DNA of 64,000 nt. It comes from Sphingomonas sp. RIT328 (lineage in GTDB: Bacteria; Pseudomonadota; Alphaproteobacteria; Sphingomonadales; Sphingomonadaceae). Shown here in pieces: positions 25,534 to 27,639 of this stretch (its first letter is position 1; every line of letters starts with the position of its first letter). The position numbers and the translations under genes were made by a program. The notes below the pieces were generated by a model. It saw nothing but the letters and a program-made list of their open reading frames with translations, was not told the origin of the DNA and made no database searches. The stretch spans positions 42,841 through 106,840 of the forward strand of contig NZ_JFYV01000005.1 of the NCBI RefSeq assembly GCF_000632225.1, read 5' to 3'.

Positions 25534-27639
25534 TCATTCCATCTCGAGAATCACCTGATCGACCGCGAGGCTGTCGCCCGCCGCGGCGGCGACCGATTTG
25601 ACCCGGCCGGCTTTCTCGGCGCGCAGGATATTCTCCATCTTCATCGCCTCGACCACCGCCAGCGGCTGTCCCGCCTCGACCGCATCGCCCGCCGCGACGT
25701 CGAGCCGGACGAGCAGCCCCGGCATCGGTGCGATCAGGAAGCGCGACAGGTCGGGCGGGACCTTCTCGATGAGATGTGCGGCATAGGGCGCGACATGCGC
25801 CGGCAGCACGCGCGCGCTATGACTGGCGCCGCGCGTCGTCAGGCGGAAGCCCGCGCGCGTCGGCGCGATGCGGACCGACAGCACCCGCTCGTCCGCCAGC
25901 TCCGCCTCGATCAGCCGGTCGCCGGGCGTATATTCGACGCCGATGTCGAGCGGCGTGCCGTCGACGGTGATCGCATCGGGCGAGACGTGGACGGCATGGT
26001 CGGCCTCGCCGATCCGCACCACCCAGTCGGCGGGCGGGTGGAGGCGATGACCGAGCTGGCCGTCGATACGGCGGGCGCGGTCGGCGTGCGCGGTCGCGGC
26101 GAAGGCGGCGATGGCGGCGAGTTCGCGCAACAATCCGGATGATGCGGGTGCACCGTGGAAGCCGTCAGGATATTCCTCCGCGATGAAGCCGGTGGTCAGC
26201 CGCCCCTCGCGGAAGCGCGGGTGCTGCATCAGCGCCGAGAGGAAGTCGATGTTGGTGCCCGGACCCTCGATCTCGAAGGCGTCGAGCGCGGCGACCTGCG
26301 CATCGATCGCCGCCTCGCGCGTCGGCGCCCAGGTGATCAGCTTGGCGATCATCGGATCGTAGAACATGCTGACCTCGCCGCCCTCGGCGACGCCGTCGTC
26401 GACGCGGGTGCGGGGCAAATCCTCCCCGTGCCGGGGAGGGGGACCATCCGAAGGATGGTGGAGGGGGGGCTCCGCATACGTTGTGCCGTGTGGAAAGCCC
26501 CCTCCACCACCCGGCTGCGCCGGGCGGTCCCCCTCCCCGTGCCGGGGAGGATTGTAGCGCACCAGTCGCCCGATGCTCGGCAGGAAGCCGCGGTACGGGT
26601 CCTCGGCATAGACGCGGTTCTCGATCGACCAGCCGTTGATCCCCACGTCGCCCTGAGCGAACGCCAGCGGCTCACCCGCGGCGACGCGGATCATCTGCTC
26701 GACCAGATCGAGCCCGGTGATCTCCTCGGTCACCGGATGCTCGACCTGGAGCCGGGTGTTCATCTCGAGGAAGTAGAAGCTCTCGCCGGTCGTATCCGCG
26801 CCCGAGACGATCAGCTCGACGGTACCGGCCGAATAGTAGCCGACCGCCCGTGCCAGCGCGACCGCCTGCTCGCCCATCGCGGCGCGCATCTTGGGCGTGA
26901 CGAAGGGCGACGGCGCCTCCTCGACCACCTTCTGGTGGCGGCGCTGCACCGAACATTCGCGCTCGTTGAGGTAGACGATGTTGCCGTGCTGGTCGCCGAG
27001 CACCTGGATCTCGATATGGCGCGGGCTTTCGATGAACTTCTCGATGAAGACGCGATCGTCGCCGAAGGACGCGAGGCCCTCGCGCTTGGTCGCCTCGAAG
27101 CCCTCGCGCACGTCCTGCTCGCTCCAGGCGAGCCGCATGCCCTTGCCGCCGCCGCCGGCCGAGGCCTTCATCATCACCGGATAGCCGATCTCGCCCGCGA
27201 TCCGCACCGCCTCGTCGGTGTCGGCGATCTCACCGAGATAGCCGGGGACGACGTTGACGCCCGCCTGCTTGGCCAGCTTCTTCGATTCGATCTTGTCGCC
27301 CATCGCCGCGATCGCATTCGGCGGCGGGCCGACGAAGGCGATCCCCGCCTCGGCGCAGGCACGCGCGAAGCTCTCGCGCTCGGACAGAAAGCCGTAGCCG
27401 GGGTGGATACAGTCGGCCCCGGTCTCCTTCGCCGCCAGCAGGATCAGCTCGGCCTTGAGATAGCTCTCCGCCGCCGGCGCCGGCCCGAGCCGCACCGCCT
27501 CGTCCGCCATCAGCACGTGCGGCGCGCGCGCGTCGGCGTCGGAATAGACCGCGACCGTCTTGATCCCCATCCGCTTGGCGGTGCGGAACACGCGGCAGGC
27601 GATCTCGCCGCGATTGGCGACCAGGATTTTCTTGAACAC
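25534..27639 (-). CDS. pccA: Propionyl-CoA carboxylase alpha subunit (biotin carboxylase + BCCP) with in-frame repeat insertion
   Basis: The protein has 701 residues from GTG 27639, preceded by GGAGAG. The biotin carboxylase part (1-~450) has FKKILVANRGEIACRV, the ATP-grasp loop ASAGGGGKGMR and EMNTRLQVEHPVTE. The C-terminal biotinyl domain has EAMKMEN with the biotin Lys at about 667. The enzyme carboxylates propionyl-CoA with PccB. Residues ~362-407 (NPPRHGEGDRPAQP through PPPRHGEDLP) are not carboxylase sequence: they are encoded by the palindromic repeat 26418-26553, sitting between FLPSIGRLVRY and RVDDGVAEGGEVSMFYDP, which are normally nearly contiguous. The frame is kept. Confidence 0.93.
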   Translation of the reverse strand: MFKKILVANRGEIACRVFRTAKRMGIKTVAVYSDADARAPHVLMADEAVRLGPAPAAESYLKAELILLAAKETGADCIHPGYGFLSERESFARACAEAGIAFVGPPPNAIAAMGDKIESKKLAKQAGVNVVPGYLGEIADTDEAVRIAGEIGYPVMMKASAGGGGKGMRLAWSEQDVREGFEATKREGLASFGDDRVFIEKFIESPRHIEIQVLGDQHGNIVYLNERECSVQRRHQKVVEEAPSPFVTPKMRAAMGEQAVALARAVGYYSAGTVELIVSGADTTGESFYFLEMNTRLQVEHPVTEEITGLDLVEQMIRVAAGEPLAFAQGDVGINGWSIENRVYAEDPYRGFLPSIGRLVRYNPPRHGEGDRPAQPGGGGGFPHGTTYAEPPLHHPSDGPPPRHGEDLPRTRVDDGVAEGGEVSMFYDPMIAKLITWAPTREAAIDAQVAALDAFEIEGPGTNIDFLSALMQHPRFREGRLTTGFIAEEYPDGFHGAPASSGLLRELAAIAAFAATAHADRARRIDGQLGHRLHPPADWVVRIGEADHAVHVSPDAITVDGTPLDIGVEYTPGDRLIEAELADERVLSVRIAPTRAGFRLTTRGASHSARVLPAHVAPYAAHLIEKVPPDLSRFLIAPMPGLLVRLDVAAGDAVEAGQPLAVVEAMKMENILRAEKAGRVKSVAAAAGDSLAVDQVILEME
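26418..26553. repeat. Palindromic repeat copy 2, inserted in frame in pccA
   Basis: A 136-bp element with AATCCTCC/GGAGGATT ends. Both ends carry CCTCCCCGTGCCGGGGAGG, a 7-bp-arm hairpin. Inner arms GGTGGAGGGGG and its complement flank a variable centre (26470-26497). Its minus-strand translation (NPPRHGEG...PPLHH...GPPPRHGEDL) parallels the plus-strand translation of the intergenic copy at 6174-6307 (NPPRHGEG...TPLHH...GGPPPRAGEEL). No stop codon occurs in this frame. Confidence 0.92.

Follow-up and report, generated by a model that had tools for sequence, protein, structure and literature searches.

A loop of the propionyl-CoA carboxylase alpha subunit is an insertion hot spot for palindromic repeats in Sphingomonas

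Introduction

Why does a gene for a carboxylase subunit carry a palindromic repeat within its reading frame, and what becomes of such repeats at this site? The question is raised by a stretch of 64,000 nucleotides from Sphingomonas sp. RIT328 (contig NZ_JFYV01000005.1, positions 42,841 to 106,840 of the forward strand), called the window below. In it, a near-palindrome of 136 bp at 26418-26553 lies inside pccA, the gene for the alpha subunit of propionyl-CoA carboxylase (PCC), which is encoded on the minus strand. An initial annotation, made from the sequence alone, had described this element as an in-frame insertion. Here, we report that this description understated the case: repeats of six families, termed F1 to F6, use the same site genus-wide, and other enzymes carry F1, the family of the window element, as well.

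Results

A palindromic repeat lies in frame within pccA

The element has the ends AATCCTCCCCGTGCCGGGGAGG...CCCCGTGCCGGGGAGGATT. Its outer 11 bases are perfectly palindromic, and 80 of the 136 positions are identical to the element's own ungapped reverse complement. When the coding-strand RNA was folded, a free energy of -107.9 kcal/mol was obtained (z = -9.5), and none of 200 shuffled sequences was equally stable. A search with the end motif, allowing up to three mismatches, yielded seven matches in the window, all of them inside two copies of the element, compared with a chance expectation of 0.01. The two terminal hairpins of the pccA copy are direct repeats 111 bases apart, a multiple of three. 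Reverse-complement identity and folding thus bore out the near-palindrome with hairpin ends that the initial annotation had claimed, the sequence search confirmed the further copy that it had placed at 6174-6307, and reading of the open reading frame (ORF) verified about 45 in-frame codons without a stop and a frame that is kept through to the biotinyl motif EAMKMEN. The peptide encoded by the insert in this genome includes GGGGGFPHGTTYAEPPLHHP. The coordinates are compiled in Table 1.

Table 1. Positions of pccA and of the repeat copies in the window
Feature	Positions	Strand	Basis and remarks
pccA, propionyl-CoA carboxylase alpha subunit	25534..27672	-	712 codons; 3n6r match, Pfam domains
Biotinyl motif EAMKMEN	25630..25650	-	residues 675-681; in frame, downstream of insert
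Palindromic repeat, family F1, in frame	26418..26553	-	residues N374 to about 418; self-comparison, folding, genome copies
3' terminal hairpin (gene orientation)	26420..26439		exact end-motif match
5' terminal hairpin (gene orientation)	26531..26551		end-motif search
Second F1 copy of the window	6174..6307		called intergenic in the initial annotation

The best match of the pccA product in the PDB was 3n6r, a PCC alpha chain, and the Pfam domains Biotin_carb_N, CPSase_L_D2, Biotin_carb_C, PCC_BT and Biotin_lipoyl were found. The length of 712 amino acids is counted from a mechanical TTG start, and the database copy (P0001) is shorter by 11 residues. An AlphaFold2 model based on an alignment of 77 rows had a mean predicted local distance difference test score (pLDDT) of 87.4 and a predicted template modelling score of 0.87. 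In this model, residues 380-407 and 409-413 had pLDDT values below 50 and were flanked by strands at 372-374 and 421-426. The insert is therefore predicted to form a disordered loop between two strands that leaves the biotin carboxylase domain in its C-terminal part, and the model agrees with the location previously proposed for the site. Fold comparison matched the model to solved PCC alpha chains, which confirms the PCC/MCC alpha fold only. A first model, built with 30 close homologues, was set aside because of its mean pLDDT of 51.9. The idea that the loop is directly followed by Arg338, a catalytic residue in biotin carboxylase of E. coli, was also dropped, as an alignment with AccC puts residue 338 at R353, before the loop.

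Repeats of six families occupy the same loop across the genus

The PccA query had matches in all 121 sampled genomes of the genus, paralogues counted. From 117 of these genomes 119 pccA loci were fetched, two genomes giving two copies each; G007, G050, G083 and G106, with weaker PccA matches, are outside this set. The loop, delimited by GRLVRY-like and RVDDGV-like motifs, was a single stop-free frame in 119 of 119 loci. Hand sorting of the DNA revealed repeats with paired hairpins in 39 loops, a single hairpin or part of a hairpin in eight, long unrecognised sequences in three, and neither in 69. In the last group the loop has 9 to 27 residues. The sequences flanking the insert, described in the initial annotation as almost contiguous in homologues, are thus separated by a loop, not directly joined, in relatives without a recognised repeat. 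The relatives with and without a repeat, together with the dispersed copies described below, back the in-frame palindromic repeat in a sphingomonad pccA.

The 39 paired-hairpin loops fell into six hand-sorted families: F1 (CCTCCCC; 3 loci), F2 (CGTC type; 10 loci in three subtypes), F3 (CCCTCCCGC; 10 loci), F4 (CCCTCCCC with TTCA; 4 loci), F5 (GAGCGAAGTCGAAGG and relatives; 10 loci) and F6 (CGTCATTGCGAGC; 2 loci). Two loops are compound: that of L050 holds a paired F4 element and a third hairpin, and that of L087 two F5-like palindromes in tandem.

Insertions of at least ten amino acids relative to the majority columns of the protein alignment were present at the loop in 42 of 119 proteins, and at three other sites in one protein each. 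Two of these three belong to L064 (G049), the C-terminal part of which is apparently frame-shifted, either through decay or through an assembly error. The third, in L062 (G102), is an in-frame F5-like repeat of 35 residues with the core GAGCTTGTCGAAGG, located after residues aligned to GDRLIEAEL. The rest of PccA, about 670 majority columns, thus serves as an internal control for site specificity. The PccA loop is an insertion hot spot for repeats in the genus. The same loop diversity was seen in the best 120 of 7999 database proteins, many of them from named Sphingomonas. The PccA of L062 contains two in-frame repeats, F2 in the hot-spot loop and the F5-like one further on.

According to the initial annotation, equally long but unrelated loops in homologues would speak against a repeat insertion. 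Long loops without a recognised repeat do occur in a few relatives, namely in L033 (G046), L054 and L055 and in some Rhodobacteraceae, so that this condition applies in part. The L033 insert, the one of the three unrecognised long loops that was queried against its genome, was used as a control: it matched only itself, and its fold was no better than that of shuffled sequences (z = -0.5).

The inserts are dispersed repeats of their own genomes

When the window element was used as a query against its own genome (G000), at least 50 rows at 29 or more distinct places were obtained (40 of 58 candidates scored). The F1 search covered this one genome; F1 is also present in pccA of G113 and G072. For each of the other families one core was searched in the genomes with that family in pccA plus G000, with matches on either strand counted and the pccA copy among them. 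Core matches were found in 11 of 11 genomes for F2, 13 of 14 for F3, 6 of 6 for F4, 9 of 11 for F5 and 2 of 3 for F6. The misses were G000 for F3, F5 and F6, and G003 for F5; with the insert of L087 itself as the query, 40 rows were found in G003. In summary, the inserts in relatives are dispersed repeats of their own genomes, and they are multi-copy in most of the genomes searched.

These results bear on the trivial explanation that the loop merely drifts in length and resembles repeats by chance, or that the insert is an assembly error. The loop is indeed variable in Alphaproteobacteria and beyond, with 8-36 residues in the loci compared outside Sphingomonadaceae. However, copies that match the inserts are dispersed in the respective genomes, and the phenomenon recurs in many independent assemblies, which leaves this explanation with next to no probability.

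At 19 of the about 29 F1 places in G000, spanning ORFs were inspected. F1 was found in frame in six conserved genes, named with NCBIfam and Pfam: pccA, truB, leuS, glyS, rnr and ligD. For rnr, the NCBIfam score for RNase R was 576 with a cut-off of 597.85, and the Pfam RNB match spans the insert. The five genes other than pccA are at loci L004, L006, L007, L009 and L020. The suggestion that the element family is read as protein in one particular frame did not hold, because all three left-end frames are used in different genes: NPPRHGEG in pccA, SSPGWGGG and SSPARGGG in truB and ligD, and GTGRGT in glyS, leuS and rnr. In 12 F1 copies of 119-137 bp, on average 4.9 of six frames were open, compared with 3.1 of six in base-shuffled sequences, which helps to explain the coding compatibility of the repeat.

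Two further observations concern the surroundings of the element in the window. The gene bioB (biotin synthase, TIGR00433; 27721-28890, minus strand) adjoins pccA upstream and has the same direction. A plus-strand ORF of 916 codons (26155-28905) is open antisense to pccA and through the element, and is taken to be an artefact of the GC-rich sequence.

The content of the loop changes frequently and may leave scars

A tree of the proteins was built without the loop columns (117 rows; the incomplete L136 and L138 were left out). On this quick tree, in which 41 of 114 inner branches are weak, parsimony required at least 31 changes for the states of paired-repeat families and at least 21 for presence or absence, counts that are blind to gain versus loss. 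Sister loci joined with 98-100% support carry different families in three cases (L046 with F4 and L052 with F6; L036 with F3 and L063 with F2; L056 with F2 and L059 with F3). In a clade of eleven with 100% support, F2, F3, F5 and single F3 hairpins exist side by side.

Loops with a single end hairpin were found at L065, L069, L079, L083, L084 and L088. Compared with the paired element of L034, which has 153 bases, L083 and L084 have 60 and 54 bases; the flanks are alike and the differences are divisible by three. L065 keeps one end hairpin, and its flanks are like those of the window's own F1 copy. Judged from the sequences, the single-hairpin loops are probable scars of a collapse between the two end hairpins. 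S. phyllosphaerae (P0009) is a named relative with such a probable scar.

The starting points of the inserts are relevant to the alternative that the repeats prefer local DNA, GC-rich and often with a resident hairpin, and that tolerance of the protein is secondary. The codon at which F1 starts is shared by L022, L027 and L031 and by the putative scars L065, L069 and L079, and the single hairpins or parts in 8 of 119 loci could be seeds for such targeting. Nevertheless, six families are present at the site, their start distances from Y373 vary, and the start phases differ even within families (phases 0 and 2 for F3, 1 and 2 for F2a). Furthermore, inspection of the loop sequences by eye revealed no target site duplication, with F1 lacking an element-free sister of the same flank. 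We therefore consider a choice driven by the DNA target unlikely.

The inserts are probably translated

In pairwise comparisons, which are not independent and include the loop flanks, differences at codon positions 1, 2 and 3 numbered 15, 13 and 47 among L044, L047, L049 and L053, and 1, 1 and 11 between L034 and L035. The excess at third positions in these two groups is as expected of a translated, mildly constrained segment.

Alternatively, the insert could be removed at the level of RNA or translation, like an intron or by ribosome bypassing, and would then be absent from the protein. Bypassing is mentioned for Magnusiomyces mitochondria in PMC6649704, and the strong hairpin of the element would suit such a process. 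Yet all 119 loops are stop-free, as would not be expected under splicing or bypassing, and the bias towards third positions, seen in two of the six insert-sharing groups, points in the same direction. In addition, an Rfam search of the element yielded no intron family; the sole match was a microRNA family with 32.9 bits, far under the gathering score of 137, and was taken as chance. Removal before or during translation is thus extremely improbable.

Other genera and a second gene

Visual inspection of the 29 top-scoring loci of a search across Sphingomonadaceae showed repeat-like loops in four or more genera besides Sphingomonas (L144 and L147 in g82, L145 in g45, L146 in g29, and L161, L166 and L168 in g80). 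A further 60 loci (59 from outside the genus) were chosen because the alignment stopped at the loop; here the loops had 9-22 residues and no repeat by eye. The biases of the two sets are opposite, the first favouring loops of query length and the second short loops. In the named loci compared outside Sphingomonadaceae the loops were mostly of 8-14 residues, with 28 in some Rhodobacteraceae.

For truB, the best match spanned nearly the full query in 65 of 120 matching genomes. Of 30 top-scoring loci (L316-L345), a choice biased to long loops, 29 loops were parsed (all except L326); they had 57-68 residues and were mostly F1-like by eye. These sequences fit an old, inherited truB insert that is widely shared in the genus. 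The family change of pccA was not reproduced, and truB was discarded as a candidate for a second hot spot.

These data can be set against the idea that the insertions are adaptive, i.e. that the hairpin or the peptide alters pccA mRNA stability or enzyme regulation, is selected, and is replaced when lost. The recurrent changes in many lineages, the strong RNA structure of the element and the related truB insert in many species would be in line with adaptive reuse. But 69 of 119 loci have no recognised repeat, the short loops of the 60 further loci, selected as described, likewise show none by eye, and neither peptide nor length nor family is conserved. An adaptive origin consequently seems quite improbable, more so than targeting by local DNA.

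Discussion

The insert in pccA is a dispersed repeat of its own genome, and we consider it likely that the PccA loop is a tolerant site at which such repeats are gained, read as disordered peptide, and lost. In this scheme, the repeats would be copied into many genes by some copying process, and selection would remove most landings that break a protein. The loop would accept any stop-free insertion with a length that is a multiple of three, and GC-rich palindromes, with open frames in the majority of the six, would suit it. Later, a paired element would probably collapse by deletion between its end hairpins to one in-frame hairpin of about seven codons, after which the site would be free for reuse. 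The conservation of the remainder of PccA suggests that the enzyme would stay active with the insert.

Several observations weigh against this tolerant-site explanation. The putative scars could instead be insertions of single hairpins. The long, unrecognised loops of L033, L054 and L055 at the same site indicate that the loop can lengthen by other means. Third-position bias was missing in four of six insert-sharing groups, and the codon-position counts suffer from the non-independence stated above. The families were sorted by hand, and F3 and F4, whose ends resemble each other, could be a single family. In the genome searches one core stood for the inserts of each family. The counts were low in G061 (2 rows), G105 (3 rows) and G049 (4 rows, or 9 with another F5 query); in these three genomes the proposed repeat nature relies mainly on family likeness, and multiple copies are barely apparent. 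The L040 insert is weakly palindromic (z = -1.2). Finally, a Y1/RAYT-type transposase (PF01797) was found in 2 of 60 genomes and in none of the other 58, which include G000.

A more far-reaching version is offered tentatively, as its probability falls somewhat short of even. The loop may be a docking site that unrelated palindrome families repeatedly enter, where they would be translated, collapse to a scar and be replaced, so that the enzyme would acquire and shed disordered segments at the scale of species, possibly with regulatory roles.

The locus offers a replicated natural experiment on a long-debated question, the origin of new protein segments from selfish repeats. It combines one site, an enzyme with solved homologues, probable scars and many differences from one sister species to the next, making tolerance, mobility and function testable in a culturable genus. 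The results also contain a warning, as gene callers and structure predictors will meet repeat-derived loops in core enzymes.

Protein-coding palindromes have been described in Rickettsia, and the initial annotation had likened the window element to these Rickettsia palindromic elements (RPEs). The likeness is supported by size, palindromy and in-frame placement. According to PMC2229807, PMC10969869 and PMC6649704, RPEs are dispersed palindromes of about 100-150 bp that lie in frame in conserved genes. The window element, with its 136 bp and its long stem-loop (-107.9 kcal/mol, z -9.5), resembles them, as does the in-frame presence of F1 in pccA, truB, leuS, glyS, rnr and ligD. The differences are the Sphingomonas host, the GC-rich sequence and the use of one loop by six families. 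The findings extend the range of such palindromes further from Rickettsia.

Other small repeats share some of these features. Fusions derived from miniature inverted-repeat transposable elements (MITEs), such as ERIC, Correia and QMITE1, also involve small non-autonomous repeats fused to genes in frame, and the MITE trait of terminal inverted repeats is present here in the perfect, ungapped 11-base ends. In contrast to the present case, recurrent use of one loop is undescribed in the portions of PMC2229807 and PMC10969869 available to us, and a clear target duplication was not seen here. REPINs with their RAYT transposases, the topic of PMC3116915, consist of two inverted hairpins and a spacer and occur in dispersed copies, an architecture also found here, whereas the own genome is among those without a Y1/RAYT match.

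A further parallel is offered by the GTAG/CGTC repetitive extragenic palindromes (REPs). Di Nocera et al. 2013 (PMC3733652) describe such REPs, as monomers and dimers, within ORFs, among which are the truB and tRNA synthetase genes of S. alaskensis and E. litoralis; truB and tRNA synthetases are F1 targets here as well. CGTC was recognised by eye at one hairpin end of the F2a, F2b and F6 inserts of relatives (CGTCAT, CGTCACC, CGTCATTG), pairing state aside. Neither a CGTC nor a GTAG tag is present at the F1 ends AATCCTCCCC...GGGGAGGATT, and therefore F1 was not filed as a tagged REP. In the literature searched, with most subscription papers outside reach, no precedent was found for one loop cycling through six families. 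The nearest one is about one site in recB, which according to PMC3733652 is occupied by different REPs in X. campestris and X. oryzae; these are two species, while in pccA six families are spread over 39 of 119 loci, with many changes among them and with probable scars. As the kind of insertion is known from RPEs and intragenic REPs, what is new in Sphingomonas is that one loop hosts six families and frequently changes between them.
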